64,000 nt of DNA from a bacterium (GTDB taxonomy: Bacteria; Cyanobacteriota; Vampirovibrionia; Gastranaerophilales; Gastranaerophilaceae), in the NCBI GenBank assembly GCA_017559905.1, contig JAFYQF010000025.1, forward strand, positions 1 through 64,000, written 5' to 3'. Of this stretch, positions 49,601 through 56,662 are shown in pieces (within the stretch, counting starts at the first letter, position 1; the number at the start of each line of letters is the position of its first letter). The notes under the pieces are model-generated. The model did no database searches. It was not told the DNA's origin and saw nothing but the letters and a program-made list of their open reading frames with translations. The position numbers and the translations under genes were made by a program.

Positions 49601-52417
49601 TTATTGTATAGATTTCAAAAATTCTTTATTTTCTTTCAAAGTGTTTTCTGTAGCCAATATTGAATAAACAGGTTTACCTGCAAAAATATAATTCGCAGCA
49701 TTATAGATATCATCAACAGTTATTTCATCAATAATTTTTAGAGCTTGGTTGACCTGTTCTAATCCATAAGGTGAAATCAAACCTGATTGCAGAGATTCAT
49801 TTTTACCACTGTTAGTTTCGTTCATACTTAATATATTATTTTTCAATGTTAATTTAGCATTTTGCAACTCTTTTTCAGAAACTTTTTCTTTAGTTATCAA
49901 ATCGATATGTTTATTGAAGCCATTGATTGATTTTTGCAAATTATCATAGCTGACTTCACCAGTTTCTTTGTTATCAGTAGTTGTACCAATAGACAAACTC
50001 ATCACGCCAACATCTCCTGTTAGCGATAAATTTGAACGAACAGAGTATGCCAACTTTTGTTCTTCTCGCAAATCTTGGAACAATCTTGATGACGGATTCC
50101 CACCTAAAATAGTGTTTAATAAATTCAAAGATATTTCATCTTTTAAATTCTGATTTATTGGGAATTTATAAGCCTTAACGATTTGAGCTTGAGGTTTTTC
50201 ATGAACATCAGTTAAAATTTTCAACTCATCTTGTGGTTTGAAGATTTCTTTTACATCACAATTTTTCGGTTTCACTTCTGGAAGTTCAGCAATTTCATTA
50301 AACACAATTTGTTTCAATTCACTTTTTTTAGAAAATGGCGCAGATACAACTATATTTGCTTGCGAATTCTCCATAATAAATTTATGCAACGCTTTCACAT
50401 CATCTAATGAAACGCTGTCAATTGAATTTAAAACATCCTGTTTTGAATATCCTGAAGGTAGACCTTTAAATAATTCAGGAATTAACTTATCATTAACAGA
50501 TTTTTCAGAAGTTTCAAGCTCATCACGAAGTTCGCTTTTCATCTTTGCCAAAGTTTCTTCTTCAAATCTTGGAGTTTGTAAAACTTCTTTCACTGACCTC
50601 AATGCCTGCACCATATCTTCAGCGAAGAATGATGAACGACCAGCAATTGCGCATTCACTAGACATAACTAACGTTTCAATCGAAAGCTTATCTAATTCAG
50701 ATTGAAATTCTTGTTCGGTTTTATTAATTGAACCTGAATTTAAGATTTTAAACAACAACTCCGCAGTACCAGGTTTTAAATTTTCAGGATACTTATTATT
50801 TTGATAAAGAACTTTTAATTTAGCATTATTATTATTTGAATCATGCAAAACAACAGAAAAATTATTTTTCAATTTGTATTCTTTTACACTATCCATATTG
50901 ACAGCTTGTTTTTGTTTAACAGAACCCGTAAACGAAATATTAGCTACTTTGTTATGGTTTGCTTTAATTGATTCTTCTGTCGCAGTTGCAGGGTGCACAA
51001 CAGTTAGCGCAACCTTGTTCAAATCCAAATATTTTTTAGCACCTTCTGATATTTTTTCAGGAGTTAACGCATTTACAAATTTTTCATACTGCGTAAAATA
51101 ATTCAAATCATCATCTAAAAAGACACCGCCAACAAACGAATTGACAAACTCTGAACGTTCAAAAATCATAGAAAAAGCTTTTAGCATACGTTTTTTGATA
51201 ACATCTAATTCTTCTTCACTAGGCGGATTTTGAGCAAGTCTTGCAATTTCCGTATAGATTGTTTTTATTATTGCTTCTGAATTATTTTCAGTTCCTTCTG
51301 CTAGCAACAAAATGGCACGGTTCGCATTTTTGTCAGAACTAATTCTTTCAACTTCCATAAAGGCACTACTATTGTAATCCTTTAGCTTTTTATCAATCCT
51401 TGAAGTTTTTGCCATAGTCAACATAGAAGACAAAGCTTGAACTAAAACTTTTTCTTCCGCATCATTATTTTTTGGACCATCAAATGCTAAAATAACAGAA
51501 GTAGCAGTAGCTTTATCTGATATAATATCTTCTCTTACAGGCTCTTTTATTGGAACTAAATTTTCTTGGTATCTTTGTGATGGTGGAAGTTTTTTAGATG
51601 AAAAATGTTTTGAAAGAAGTTTCATAGTAGCTTCAGGCTCAACTTCTCCAGTCACAACAGTCACCATATTAGCAGGATAATAGTTATCATCAAAATATTT
51701 AACAACATCTTCTCTTTTCAAATTAGTGATATTAGAAGTTGTTCCACCTATCATATCAAGCGAAGAAGTTTCAATTTGGTATAAATTTTTAAGAGTTTTG
51801 TTAATACCGATATTAAGCGGATTTGCAGTTATCATATTAATTTCGGAATTTACAATACCTTTTTCTTTTTCTAACATTTCGGTTGCAAAACGTGGAGTCT
51901 CCATCATTGAAGCGTGAAGTTTTACCTTTGTTTCCAAATCGTTTTCAGTCAAAAGATTAGAACTTATATAATAATTTGTTTCAGAAAAACCTGTACTTGC
52001 ATTTGTAGAAGCACCCATTTCATCAACTTTTTTGAAGAACTCGCCAGATTCTAACCCATCTGAACCGTTAAAAAGATTGTGCTCAATATAATGACTTATA
52101 CCACGCAAATTGTCAGGCTCATTCATTGAACCAGTATTTACAAAAGTCTTTAATACAGTTTTCCCTTCTTTTGGAATAATTATAACCCTCTGTCCGTTTG
52201 CAAATTTGTATAAATTAGCATTCAAATCATAAGGGAGTTTAAACTCACCCAATTTTTGATATGGCATTGGAGTCTTTACAGCATAATCAGGCGTTACAGA
52301 AGGAAGTGAAGACTTTTCTTCAATAGGATTTGTAACATTGTTTTCAACCTTTTTTTGATTATTTTGTTCTGTAATGACAACCTTATTTGACGCAAATTGA
52401 GGATTAATTCGAATCAT
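49601..52417 (-). CDS. M16-family metallopeptidase without signal peptide
   Basis: 938 aa with two M16 halves. The zinc motif H109-Y-I-E112-H113 (RGISHYIEHNLFNG) and the distal NSEINMITANPLN region mark the catalytic half. The second half lacks the motif. The N terminus (MIRINPQFASNKVV, then a Gln/Asn/Pro-rich linker to about residue 55) has no signal peptide, unlike the paralogue at 28343..30934. An F-T-G motif (ANISFTGSVKQ) lies between the halves. AAGGTAGG precedes ATG. It lies 75 nt after the histidine-free protein, in the same direction, and may share its attenuated transcript. Confidence 0.88.
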   Translation of the reverse strand: MIRINPQFASNKVVITEQNNQKKVENNVTNPIEEKSSLPSVTPDYAVKTPMPYQKLGEFKLPYDLNANLYKFANGQRVIIIPKEGKTVLKTFVNTGSMNEPDNLRGISHYIEHNLFNGSDGLESGEFFKKVDEMGASTNASTGFSETNYYISSNLLTENDLETKVKLHASMMETPRFATEMLEKEKGIVNSEINMITANPLNIGINKTLKNLYQIETSSLDMIGGTTSNITNLKREDVVKYFDDNYYPANMVTVVTGEVEPEATMKLLSKHFSSKKLPPSQRYQENLVPIKEPVREDIISDKATATSVILAFDGPKNNDAEEKVLVQALSSMLTMAKTSRIDKKLKDYNSSAFMEVERISSDKNANRAILLLAEGTENNSEAIIKTIYTEIARLAQNPPSEEELDVIKKRMLKAFSMIFERSEFVNSFVGGVFLDDDLNYFTQYEKFVNALTPEKISEGAKKYLDLNKVALTVVHPATATEESIKANHNKVANISFTGSVKQKQAVNMDSVKEYKLKNNFSVVLHDSNNNNAKLKVLYQNNKYPENLKPGTAELLFKILNSGSINKTEQEFQSELDKLSIETLVMSSECAIAGRSSFFAEDMVQALRSVKEVLQTPRFEEETLAKMKSELRDELETSEKSVNDKLIPELFKGLPSGYSKQDVLNSIDSVSLDDVKALHKFIMENSQANIVVSAPFSKKSELKQIVFNEIAELPEVKPKNCDVKEIFKPQDELKILTDVHEKPQAQIVKAYKFPINQNLKDEISLNLLNTILGGNPSSRLFQDLREEQKLAYSVRSNLSLTGDVGVMSLSIGTTTDNKETGEVSYDNLQKSINGFNKHIDLITKEKVSEKELQNAKLTLKNNILSMNETNSGKNESLQSGLISPYGLEQVNQALKIIDEITVDDIYNAANYIFAGKPVYSILATENTLKENKEFLKSIQ

Positions 52418-52492: not shown

Positions 52493-53806
52493 TTACACTG
52501 TTTTGCTTTCATTATCAACTATACCAGGTTCTAATTTTGAACCAGTATACCACTCACGAAAGGCATATTGTGCTTTCGGCAGACAATATGCAAGCAAGAA
52601 GCTACTCAACCCAACATTTGCCAAGATATTCAAAGATTTGACGGTTTTAGCTTTTTTTGCAAATCGCTGAACTTCTTCTAAAACATTTTTATCACCAGCA
52701 ACAGAAATAGCCTTTGATGAAAATTCTTCTATAGAACGTTTAAACTTAACAAGCTCATCCAAATCTACATACGCTCTAGGATCTCTAACTCCTGATTTCA
52801 ACATTTTTACTTTTTCAAACTCTGTTGCATATTTTGTAAATATTGAATTAGGATTTTCATCAATAAATTTCAATAAAGAAACTCCATCATTCCCTTTTGG
52901 TAATTGAATATTTTTTGTAGCAACATCTTTTATAAAATTTTTATCAGCCAACATAATTGGGTCTAATTTTACGTTCAAATTTAAAACTTTGCTTGTTGCA
53001 TTATCCAAAAACTTTTCAATGTATTTTGGAGCAACAAAATTTAAAAACATCATACCAGCCATCTTGAAAGCAATATCAACAGCTTCATTCTTTTTCCTAG
53101 CAGTTACAACCCTGCCTACAGCATACCCACCATCAATTGTTGCCATTTTTTGATAAGTAGAAAACCCCGCAACAGTAGAAGAAAAACTACCCGTAAATGT
53201 CGGTGCTTTTGAATTTTTAATCATATTATTATCTGTATTTACATTTTTTTGAGTTTCTTTAGCTTTTTTCATAGCTTTAGTTTTTGCCGTTAAGCCAAAC
53301 ACTAGCTTTGGAATTACAAAGCCCATCAAAGCAATAGGAATTGTAGTGGCTGAAATAAATTTAGCTGAAAGTAATTTTTCATACTTCCCTTTATTTAATT
53401 TAACCTTTTTGATATCTTCTAAAGCAGATTTAACTTCTTTCGCCTGTTTTTCATTAAAAATATTTTTGGCAAGTTTTTCTTCATAAGCCTTGATATTAAA
53501 ATCAATTCCCTGACAATTTGATTCCTTAAACAATTTCAAATTCACATCTGGAGAAAGTCCATTTTTCTTTATAAATTTATTGGCAACCCATTCTACAAAA
53601 GGTATTCCACCTAACCAAACCGCTGATGTAGCATATTCATCAATGACACGTTCTCTAGTTGCAAGAAACGCAACATCCTTGTCATCTTTATTTTCTTTAT
53701 ACGTCAAATAAACCTTTGACGGTATTTCAACTCCGCAATCACGGAGTATCAAAGGGTAAACACTACTATTATTACCTATCGCTGATATTATTCTTGTTAA
53801 TGTCAT
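52493..53806 (-). CDS. Histidine-free lineage-specific membrane protein behind a His attenuator
   Basis: About 437 aa, starting at the ATG at 53806 or the one at 53812; GGAG lies 9 or 3 nt upstream. No known family. The N terminus (MTLTRIISAIGNNSSVYPLI) is followed by a soluble domain with VAFLATRERVIDEYATSAVW. Several hydrophobic segments are visible (about 75-90; 185-205 ISATTIPIALMGFVIPKLVF; 275-290; 405-425). A TFTGSFSS motif lies near 225. I find no histidine in the whole reading frame, although about 7 would be expected. It follows an attenuator whose leader peptide has four His codons (53862..54005). Control by charged tRNA-His is inferred. Confidence 0.8.
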   Translation of the reverse strand: MTLTRIISAIGNNSSVYPLILRDCGVEIPSKVYLTYKENKDDKDVAFLATRERVIDEYATSAVWLGGIPFVEWVANKFIKKNGLSPDVNLKLFKESNCQGIDFNIKAYEEKLAKNIFNEKQAKEVKSALEDIKKVKLNKGKYEKLLSAKFISATTIPIALMGFVIPKLVFGLTAKTKAMKKAKETQKNVNTDNNMIKNSKAPTFTGSFSSTVAGFSTYQKMATIDGGYAVGRVVTARKKNEAVDIAFKMAGMMFLNFVAPKYIEKFLDNATSKVLNLNVKLDPIMLADKNFIKDVATKNIQLPKGNDGVSLLKFIDENPNSIFTKYATEFEKVKMLKSGVRDPRAYVDLDELVKFKRSIEEFSSKAISVAGDKNVLEEVQRFAKKAKTVKSLNILANVGLSSFLLAYCLPKAQYAFREWYTGSKLEPGIVDNESKTV

Positions 53807-53861
53807 AATCATTTTCTCCAATTCTAACTTTTTCACTATTCTGGGGTGCGAAATAGGCACT

Positions 53862-53892
53862 AAAAAAGCCTTTCATCTTCCTGATAAAGGCT
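53862..53892 (-). terminator. Attenuator terminator (region 3:4)
   Basis: On the minus strand AGCCTTTATC pairs with GAT(G)AAAGGCT around an AGGAA loop, followed by six T. The 5' half (53883-53894, GTAGCCTTTATC) can pair instead with region 2 (53944-53955). Confidence 0.9.
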
Positions 53893-53948
53893 ACTTTCTT
53901 AATTAGAATTGAACTGATTTAAAACTTCGCACAACATCAATCCATAGC

Positions 53949-54005
53949 CTATATCAGGTCGCTATGATGATGACGATGGAATTTTAAATCAAATAATTTC
54001 TTCAT
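53949..54005 (-). CDS. Histidine-rich leader peptide of the attenuator
   Basis: Reads MKKLFDLKFHRHHHSDLI and stop: 18 codons with four His codons in a span of five (H-R-H-H-H). AAAGGA lies 9 nt before ATG. It is comparable in size and layout to hisL of enteric bacteria (a run of His near the end, then a stop). The stop lies within the region-2 sequence. The product itself need not have a function; the position of a stalled ribosome does. Too short for standard gene finders. Confidence 0.85.
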   Translation of the reverse strand: MKKLFDLKFHRHHHSDLI

Positions 54006-54024
54006 ATAATTTTCCTTTGTCTAG

Positions 54025-54053
54025 AAATTAACACAGGGTAAAACTTTTTTCAA
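54025..54053 (-). promoter_or_regulatory. Promoter of the histidine attenuator transcript
   Basis: TTGAAA (54048-54053) and a TG-extended TAATTT (54025-54030) are 17 bp apart on the minus strand. Transcription should start about 10-15 nt before the leader peptide ATG. Confidence 0.6.
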
Positions 54054-54063
54054 GCCCAGATAA

Positions 54064-54351
54064 CTAATTTGTAAAAAAATCTTTTAATTTTTGTAATTTT
54101 TCATTATCAAAACACTTAATTAAAACTGTTTTTTCTTTAGAAGTTTCCCCTCTAATTATTTCAAACGAAGTTTTTGGAATTTTAAAGTTTTTAGACAAAT
54201 ACTCAATAACAGCCTTGTTAGCCTTACCATCAATTGGCTGAGCAGTTATTTTTAGCTTAACGCCATCAACTGATTTTACAATTTCATTTTTTGACGCATT
54301 TGGTGAAATTTTGATATTTAAAACTAAACCATCTTTTGTTTCTTTTAACAT
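54064..54351 (-). CDS. DUF167 (YggU-like) protein
   Basis: 95 aa. The family pattern is clear: NIKISPNASKNEIV, then LKITAQPIDGKANKAVIEYLSKNF, then SFEIIRGETSKEKTVLI. It is a small alpha/beta domain with no assigned biochemical role. GAGG lies 9 nt before ATG. It is divergent from the RelA/SpoT gene and upstream of the attenuator promoter in the same direction. Confidence 0.93.
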   Translation of the reverse strand: MLKETKDGLVLNIKISPNASKNEIVKSVDGVKLKITAQPIDGKANKAVIEYLSKNFKIPKTSFEIIRGETSKEKTVLIKCFDNEKLQKLKDFFTN

Positions 54352-54448: not shown

Positions 54449-56662
54449 ATGACTGAAAAATCACTATTCGAGGATATAAAACAATCACTTCAAGCCCAAA
54501 ACTGGGAAGATGAAGACATAAAACAAGTTGAAAAAGCGTTTCTTTTTGCAGAAAAGCTTCACGAGGGACAATATAGGATTTCAGAAGAACCCTATATAAT
54601 TCACCCTGTCGAAGTTGCAAAAATTCTTGTAAACCTTAAAGTTGACAGTCATACGCTTATTGCCGCATTTTTGCACGATATATTAGAAGATACAGACACC
54701 AAGCCAGAAGAAATAAAAGAGCTTTTTGGTGATGATGTTTTGAACTTGGTGCAAGGAGTGACTAAACTTGGCAAACTTCAATTCAAATCTAACGAAGAAC
54801 GTCAAGCAGAAAACTTCCGACGTCTGTTTATTGCAATGGCAAACGACATCAGAGTTATCTTCCTAAAACTTGCAGACAGATTGCATAATATGCGAACCCT
54901 GAACTTTATGGCTGCAAACAAGCAACAAAAAATTGCACGTGAAACTTTAGATATTTTTGCACCACTAGCAAACCGTTTAGGTATCGGTAAAGTCAAGGCA
55001 GAGCTTGAAGATTTATCATTAAGATACCTTGAACCTGACAAATATTTTGAAATTGCACAACTTGTTTCTCAAACAAAAGCAGAACGTGAAATGACCGTAA
55101 ACTTGCTAATCGAAAAAATTTCTCAAGATGTGCAAAAGAACGGCATAAACGCTCAAATCACAGGACGTGCAAAACATTATTACAGCATTTACAGCAAAAT
55201 GAAACGTCTGAACATCGCATTCCACGATTTATACGATATTACGGCAGTACGTGTAATTGTAGATAGTGAAAAAGAATGCTATGAAGTTTTAGGACTAATT
55301 CACTCACAATTCAAACCAATCCCAGGTAGATTTAAAGATTATATTGCTATGCCAAAAGGCAACATGTACCAATCTTTACACACCTCAGTAATTGGTCCAC
55401 GTTCAAAACCTTTGGAAGTCCAAATCAGAACTTGGGAAATGCACGAAATCGCTGAATATGGGGTTGCTGCACACTGGAGATATAAAGAAAAAGGTTCTCA
55501 AAAAGCTAACAACCCTGCAGATGTTCAATTTAGCTGGATGAGAAAAATGGTTGAATATGAGCAAGACATTACAAATGCAGAAGATTACGTCAATTCTGTT
55601 AAGCTAGACCTTTTCTCTGACCAAGTATTTGCATTCACTCCAAATGGTGACGTACTAGATTTGCCAATAAACGCCACTCCTGTAGACTTTGCATACAGAA
55701 TTCACTCTGATGTAGGACACAGAACAGTCGGTGCACTTGTTAACGGACGTATTGCACAACTTTATACAAAGTTGAATAACGGCGATATTGTAGAAATTTT
55801 AACTTCAAAAACCCAAGCACCTCGCCTTGATTGGCTTAACTTTGTTGTAACAAAACAGGCTTCTTCAAAAATCAAACAATGGTTTAAAAAGAACAACCGC
55901 GAAGATCACATCGAAGTTGGAAAAGCTAACCTTGAGCACGAATTAACTAAAGCAGTTTTTGATGAGTATTTAAAAAGCGGTGAATTTGACAAAATTGCTA
56001 AAGTTATGAACTACCAAACCGCTGAAGACCTTTTTGCAGCGTTAGGATATGGTGAAACAACTTTAAACAAAATCGTTAACAAACTCAAAAAGCCTGAAAA
56101 GAAACCTCTCGAACAAAATTTCCACGTTCATTCCAGAAAGAAATCAGAAAAGGATATTATTGGCTTAGAAGGACTTTTGTACTCATTTGCTCGTTGTTGC
56201 TCTCCAATTCCTGGAGAACCCATTGTAGGCGTTGTAACTCGTTCAAAAGGGGTTTCCGTTCACAGAATTGACTGCAAAACTTTAGAAAACGTTCCCCCTG
56301 AAAGACTTATGGATATCAGTTGGGCAGGTGGAACAACATCCAAAACTTACAGCACCACTATTCGTGTTGAAACTGCTGAAAAAATGGGACTACTCAAAGA
56401 CATTATCGCTGCTGTTTCTGATAACAATACAAATATCAATTATGCAAATGTTAAATCTAAAAACAACAAGATTGGTATCATTGAACTTGGTATTGAGTTG
56501 AATAATATTGAGACTTTGAAAAAAGTTATAACAAGTATTCAATCTATACCTGATGTTTATAGCGTAAAACGTATCCAAACTTCAGCTTCGCACTCAAGCC
56601 AACCTAGAAAGCCACAACAACAAAAAGGAAGATACCCTAAATCAAAACCAAGAAAAAATTAA
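54449..56662 (+). CDS. Bifunctional (p)ppGpp synthetase/hydrolase (RelA/SpoT)
   Basis: 737 aa, the full-length Rel architecture of the stringent response. The HD hydrolase domain is intact (IIHPVEVAKIL; AAFLHDILEDTD; LADRLHNMRT). The synthetase domain has RFKDYIAMPKGNMYQSLHT and EVQIRTWEMHEIAEYGVAAHW. TGS (VFAFTPNGDVLDLP), a zinc-finger-like stretch (FARCCSPIPGEPIVG) and ACT domains (TTIRVETAEKMGLLKDI) follow; a basic tail ends the protein. Both activities should be present. The mRNA is predicted leaderless. A terminator shared with the next, convergent gene follows. Confidence 0.97.
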   Translation: MTEKSLFEDIKQSLQAQNWEDEDIKQVEKAFLFAEKLHEGQYRISEEPYIIHPVEVAKILVNLKVDSHTLIAAFLHDILEDTDTKPEEIKELFGDDVLNLVQGVTKLGKLQFKSNEERQAENFRRLFIAMANDIRVIFLKLADRLHNMRTLNFMAANKQQKIARETLDIFAPLANRLGIGKVKAELEDLSLRYLEPDKYFEIAQLVSQTKAEREMTVNLLIEKISQDVQKNGINAQITGRAKHYYSIYSKMKRLNIAFHDLYDITAVRVIVDSEKECYEVLGLIHSQFKPIPGRFKDYIAMPKGNMYQSLHTSVIGPRSKPLEVQIRTWEMHEIAEYGVAAHWRYKEKGSQKANNPADVQFSWMRKMVEYEQDITNAEDYVNSVKLDLFSDQVFAFTPNGDVLDLPINATPVDFAYRIHSDVGHRTVGALVNGRIAQLYTKLNNGDIVEILTSKTQAPRLDWLNFVVTKQASSKIKQWFKKNNREDHIEVGKANLEHELTKAVFDEYLKSGEFDKIAKVMNYQTAEDLFAALGYGETTLNKIVNKLKKPEKKPLEQNFHVHSRKKSEKDIIGLEGLLYSFARCCSPIPGEPIVGVVTRSKGVSVHRIDCKTLENVPPERLMDISWAGGTTSKTYSTTIRVETAEKMGLLKDIIAAVSDNNTNINYANVKSKNNKIGIIELGIELNNIETLKKVITSIQSIPDVYSVKRIQTSASHSSQPRKPQQQKGRYPKSKPRKN

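Follow-up and report, generated by a model that had tools for sequence, protein, structure and literature searches.

The locus analysed here raises the question of why a short reading frame rich in histidine codons should precede a gene that is not part of a histidine operon, and what such an arrangement would sense and control. In Proteobacteria and some Firmicutes, attenuators with His-codon leaders are known from his operons, and in bacilli from hisS-like genes (PMC9413887, PMC2965389). The locus lies in a stretch of 64,000 nucleotides (hereafter the window) from a bacterium of the family Gastranaerophilaceae, and an earlier note, made from the sequence alone, had described a histidine-type attenuator at this place, ahead of a lineage-specific membrane protein of unknown function. 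In the present work, we have examined the leader, the RNA structures that follow it, the regulated gene and the distribution of this gene among related genomes.

The whole element is located on the minus strand, between positions 53806 and 54005. Its leader ORF, MKKLFDLKFHRHHHSDLI* (53949..54005, minus strand), consists of 18 codons, four of them for histidine, and is found 199 nt 5' of the start of the next gene at 53806. With the ribosome-binding site (RBS) AAAGGA upstream of it (54013..54018), the leader is present just as the earlier note had proposed. The histidine codons (53978-53976 and 53972-53964) form the regulatory run CAT CGT CAT CAT CAT (His, Arg, His, His, His; 53964..53978), and all of the relatives have 3 to 7 His at this place. 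A spaced promoter had also been claimed, and a probable one can be placed by eye from the alignment at 54025..54053 (TTGAAA at 54053-54048, a spacer of 16-17 and TTAATT/TAATTT at 54031-54025, all on the minus strand); its -35 motif TTGNAA and a TGNTTANNAT-like -10 motif recur in the alignment of 30 loci, but it is absent from the output of a consensus scanner for the window. A search of the window's own genome for second copies of the attenuator element found none.

The same gene is preceded by DNA homologues of the element in each of the 14 genomes of the genus, and in other genera as well. Of 289 genomes of the class, 111 have a match (E up to 0.1) to a covariance model built from 30 homologues, in nearly every case a single one, and all of them belong to the window's family. 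Leaders were sought near chosen genes, and a short ORF with 3 or more His within 8 residues is present in 109 of the 109 fetched regions that precede true orthologues, the upstream region of L135 being left out of this count because it precedes a different gene. An ORF of this kind starting with ATG was identified in 102 of 103 orthologous upstream regions (L067 has a TTG start). Among the controls, such an ORF turned up in 4 of 1030 dinucleotide shuffles, in none of the 103 opposite strands and in 8 of 1492 windows taken from other loci. The frequency of the His-rich leader is thus far above chance. In a separate named collection, which places the lineage as Candidatus Gastranaerophilales (Melainabacteria), the leader is present at 80 of 80 loci, many of them from species shared with the first set, so that the two sets are not independent. 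The loss of the His codons in relatives, which had been named beforehand as grounds for giving up the proposal, was not seen in any orthologue examined. Within the leaders, the number and spacing of the His residues vary, with T, L, I, N, S, Q, Y or R interspersed, the differences in length are multiples of three, and the His codons are CAT in 424 of 454 cases and CAC in 30. In the genera g29 and g10 (L213-L223), the RNA that follows the leader is unlike that of the window and the His run is still present, which argues that the conserved feature is the reading of His codons.

The RNA arms that follow were described earlier as three hairpins, all of which are present in the window, although this account is incomplete. 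The first of them pairs arm 1, CATCATCATAGC (53961..53972), which spans the His codons, with its complement in arm 2 (53935..53948). Beneath it lies a perfect base of 10 bp, formed by arm 0, TGATTTAAAA (53991-53982), and arm 0-prime, TTTTAAATCA (53924-53915), which had not been described and whose two sides covary. The 1:2 pairing itself is complementary and conserved but invariant, and covariation therefore speaks neither for nor against it. The second pairing, 2:3, is formed by the antiterminator portion of arm 2, CCTGATATAGGCTAT (53958-53944), which includes the leader stop codon, and arm 3, GTAGCCTTTATCAGG (53894-53880). This duplex of -21 kcal/mol is longer than first reported. The third, 3:4, consists of AGCCTTT (53892-53886) and arm 4, AAAGGCT (53873-53867), followed by the U-tract of a putative terminator, six T (53862..53867), as had been claimed. 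The pairings 2:3 and 3:4 are mutually exclusive, since arm 3 is common to both. The putative terminator is absent from scanner output because its loop is 12 nt, the maximum of the scanner being 8. What the three-hairpin account had missed is a helix that sequesters an RBS, in which arm Y (anti-RBS), CAATTCTAA (53911-53903), pairs with TTAGAATTG (53827-53819) in arm Z (53816..53827), which continues into GGAG, the RBS of the membrane-protein gene. GGATTG (53943-53938), within the stretch of arm 2 complementary to arm 1, is also able to pair with Y. The 2b:Y pairing is recovered by RNAalifold and is invariant, covariation being uninformative about it. Folding of the whole stretch beats 198 of 200 dinucleotide shuffles (z -2.8).

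The alternative pairings 2:3 and 3:4 are kept among relatives with compensatory changes, which is the second point on which the earlier note had been prepared to see its proposal fail. In the MAFFT alignment, 7 pairs of 2:3 and 7 of the 10 pairs of 3:4 are changed on both sides, in each case above shuffled and slid controls. In a swap test, in which an arm of one sequence was matched to the partner from another, 0 of 2000 permutations were as good as the true partners for each of 0:0-prime, 2:3, 3:4, Y:Z and X:X-prime; when the comparison is confined to the one genus, 0:0-prime, 2:3 and X:X-prime still stand out, 3:4 and Y:Z do so less strongly, and all of these covariation and swap tests are limited by the relatedness of the sequences. 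The X:X-prime pairing, a possible pseudoknot, joins the 3:4 loop to the segment that follows arm 2. In relatives it covaries, and in the window it is displaced to GTGCGAA (53932-53926) and TTCGCAC (53852-53846), which are complementary to each other. The six-T tract of the window has no counterpart, or a weak one, in 7 of 30 relatives (L044, L048, L053 and L057-L060). Because some relatives have lost the U-tract, control is probably exerted on both termination and translation, and the pairing and covariation of Y:Z suggest that translational control may be the more durable layer, outlasting the terminator in several lineages.

Modelling of the 30 sequences is in keeping with such a switch. With a modelled ribosome at the second His codon, the mean numbers of expected pairs are 13.2 for 2:3 and 0.2 for 3:4, and with the ribosome at the leader stop codon they are 0.0 and 8.2, respectively. 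In these models, 28 of the 30 sequences have more 3:4 at the stop and 21 of the 30 have a more open RBS at the stall, the mean unpaired fraction of the RBS region being 0.44 at the stall and 0.22 at the stop. In the model, then, the position of the ribosome decides the fold, as is expected of an attenuator. We propose that the element would act as a ribosome-mediated attenuator which reads the supply of charged tRNA-His and has the adjoining downstream membrane-protein gene as its target. When histidine is ample, the ribosome would reach the leader stop codon inside arm 2 and mask this arm, whereupon the 3:4 termination hairpin would form, Y would occupy the RBS and the gene would be off. When His-tRNA is short, the ribosome would stall on the His codons and leave arm 2, about 18 nt downstream, free to pair with arm 3 (and with Y), so that the 3:4 hairpin would not form, the RBS would be released and the gene would be on. 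That a His-responsive switch controls the membrane-protein gene is highly probable.

The start of the regulated gene (52493..53806, minus strand) was assigned by aligning its orthologues; a further in-frame ATG is found at 53812. The gene product, of which 436 aa were modelled, has about four hydrophobic stretches, and the AlphaFold2 model is confident and all-helical (pLDDT 86). The protein has no family match in Pfam, NCBIfam or PHROG and no PDB relative by sequence, and the family is restricted to this lineage, in agreement with the earlier description of the gene as lineage-specific and not a member of a his operon. Comparisons of fold are unconvincing, the best Foldseek match having an E value of 0.63 and the best VIA-align match a Z of 6.3 over 119 residues, within the range given for common helical arrangements; a known transporter fold is still a candidate. 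The missing family and fold matches do not establish a new fold. Downstream of the leader, the membrane-protein gene is followed by a gene for an M16 peptidase, and no his genes are found there; a conserved co-transcription unit with this peptidase was not seen in 73 relatives.

Some other features of the surroundings were also observed. A RelA/SpoT homologue (HD, RelA_SpoT, TGS and ACT domains) is encoded by a neighbouring gene of the window at 54449-56662 (plus strand), upstream of the DUF167 gene; RelA/SpoT is the stringent-response enzyme of amino-acid starvation. A gene for a sodium:alanine symporter lies convergent and close downstream in some relatives (PF01235 in L231; the motif in 19 of 73 named loci) and is not found in the window. 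The short motif F-(K/T/N/R/S)-G (e.g. SFTG, NFKG) is present in the window at 49601-52417 and in many unrelated lineage-specific proteins of relatives, where it is located near the N-terminus or precedes hydrophobic parts, and it is a possible sorting or processing signal.

The function of the gene, described earlier as unknown, is not wholly open, as nearly all genomes that have the gene lack hisD and hisB, the two genes by which the histidine pathway was represented in our analyses. The window's genome, which is 99.96% complete, has no hisD and no hisB, and because these are missing, its source bacterium probably cannot make histidine. Among the 276 genomes of the family, an orthologue of the membrane protein (E at most 1e-90) is present in 159, hisD in 79 and hisB in 73. 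The orthologue occurs together with hisD in 5 of these genomes, and with hisB in the same 5 (Fisher p 5e-30 and 2e-26, respectively, by a test that ignores relatedness). Within single genera, in counts uncorrected for relatedness, the gene and hisD are found in 7 and 9 genomes of g21 (both in none), in 8 and 7 genomes of g6 (both in 3) and in 1 and 15 genomes of g41 (both in none); each of these three genera may comprise two clades. The five genomes with both the gene and hisD/hisB are G174, G018, G025, G255 and G263, three from genus g6 being among the last four; the hisD of G174 (G174:C10:29542-30756) scores 601 bits, all other hisD scoring at most 510, and was possibly acquired from outside. 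Both hisD and the gene are missing from 43 of the 276 genomes, so that the absence of hisD does not in every case entail a need for the gene. Taken with the leader, this co-occurrence makes it look like a scavenging gene that was retained or gained where biosynthesis was lost.

Leaders of other composition were also identified in this lineage. Genera differ in the leader that precedes a lineage-specific family of about 500 aa (L135, L141-L170): at the same place, some have a poly-Ser leader (L141 MRKFCLNNSSSSSSSKSSGLR, L152) and others a poly-Cys leader (L155, L157, L160, L167). A hairpin and a T-run accompany most of these leaders, and the regulating amino acid ahead of this family seems to have switched between Cys and Ser. 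Two suggestions about the family were rejected: that it is a paralogue of the window protein is unsupported (hhalign probability 0.3), and that it marks the loss of cysE is contradicted by a cysE-like match in 117 of 117 genomes, 110 of them above the curated cut-off. Ahead of distant relatives of the window protein (about 27% identity; L027-L033, L035 and L037-L039) stands a conserved Arg-rich leader, M.LRLRRKSII.KANAP..RLMNLIWGL, which has a GCCCC/GGGGC hairpin and lacks a T-run; one such relative is found in the window's own genome (C13, at about 48.4 kb). This leader may act as an attenuator or as an arrest peptide. The specificity of the Ser, Cys and Arg leaders is a guess from their composition, and in a third group (L171-L190) in which leaders were sought, none was clear.

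On the basis of the leader and the co-occurrence, we consider it an evenly balanced proposition that the membrane protein serves the acquisition of histidine or of His-containing peptides; its lack of resemblance to any known transporter counts against this role. The most serious alternative accepts the histidine attenuator and holds that the protein plays no part in histidine uptake; it could, for instance, be a protein of general starvation or of the envelope, to which His is no more than the limiting signal. A membrane protein with only about four hydrophobic stretches and no recognisable transporter fold or family would suit this explanation, as would the unrelated family with Ser/Cys leaders in the same genomes, which occurs without loss of cysE; however, the near-exclusive occurrence of the gene where hisD and hisB are missing would not readily be expected of a general stress gene, and we give this explanation appreciable weight while finding it rather doubtful. 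Poly-His, like the poly-Cys of the leaders of the 500-aa family, is also a metal ligand, and a His-rich nascent peptide could in principle sense zinc, nickel or copper and arrest the ribosome ahead of a metal-related gene, but this is very improbable given that the number and spacing of the His residues vary freely (3 to 7, with interruptions), that Ser runs replace the Cys runs in the 500-aa family and that the link of the gene is to missing histidine biosynthesis genes. A purely structural reading, in which the CAT codons are conserved as an RNA arm alone and the leader ORF is incidental, draws on the complementarity of arm 1 to arm 2 and the predominance of CAT, and is scarcely credible against the occurrence of CAC, the changes of leader length in threes, the persistence of the leader where arm 2 has changed (L213-L223) and the Ser and Cys runs that occupy the corresponding place ahead of another gene family.

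Histidine acquisition thus remains our preferred reading, and we tentatively extend it, at a little under even probability, to the proposal that Gastranaerophilales use amino-acid-specific leader switches (His; Ser/Cys, perhaps Arg) on lineage-specific membrane or surface proteins, the His-controlled one being a new histidine-acquisition protein that replaces the lost biosynthesis. The significance of such leaders is that a conserved one points out the probable substrate for a protein family beyond the reach of homology, in a lineage of gut bacteria known mostly from assembled genomes. If true, the proposal would provide a handle on how these cyanobacterial relatives obtain an amino acid that they no longer synthesise, would add one more phylum to those with leader-peptide attenuators and would provide, upstream of one family, a natural series of switches between Cys and Ser as the regulating amino acid.

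In comparison to known systems, the element most resembles the enterobacterial hisL leader (Rfam His_leader), with which it shares tandem His codons, three competing hairpins and readthrough upon stalling, and from which it differs in its phylum, its non-biosynthetic target and its additional RBS-sequestering helix. A search of Rfam gave no gathering-level match, including to His_leader and T-box, and none up to E 10 in 53780-54080; the element works like His_leader and is not filed as a member. The attenuators of Firmicutes his operons (PMC9413887) and of hisS/hisZ paralogues in bacilli (PMC2965389) likewise have His-rich leaders outside the Proteobacteria, but their targets are biosynthetic or tRNA-synthetase-like genes, whereas here the target is a membrane protein in genomes without hisD and hisB. 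The His T-boxes before hisXYZ transporters in Firmicutes also couple shortage of tRNA-His to a gene presumed to supply histidine, although they bind uncharged tRNA directly and here a leader peptide is read (PMC9413887). Runs of one codon that sense one amino acid are likewise reported for the mycobacterial polycysteine leader ORFs (Canestrari et al., 2020, as cited in PMC13236596); these differ from the window element in responding to cysteine, in being leaderless ORFs and in belonging to actinobacteria, and the Ser/Cys leaders of the 500-aa family are a closer parallel to them than the His leader. Attenuators that sequester an RBS instead of terminating have been described in general (PMC9413887), and a literature search that covered mostly papers outside subscription found no leader-peptide attenuator for this lineage. 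Hence, the mechanism is a known one, and what appear to be new are the phylum, the target, the added control of the RBS and the link to auxotrophy.
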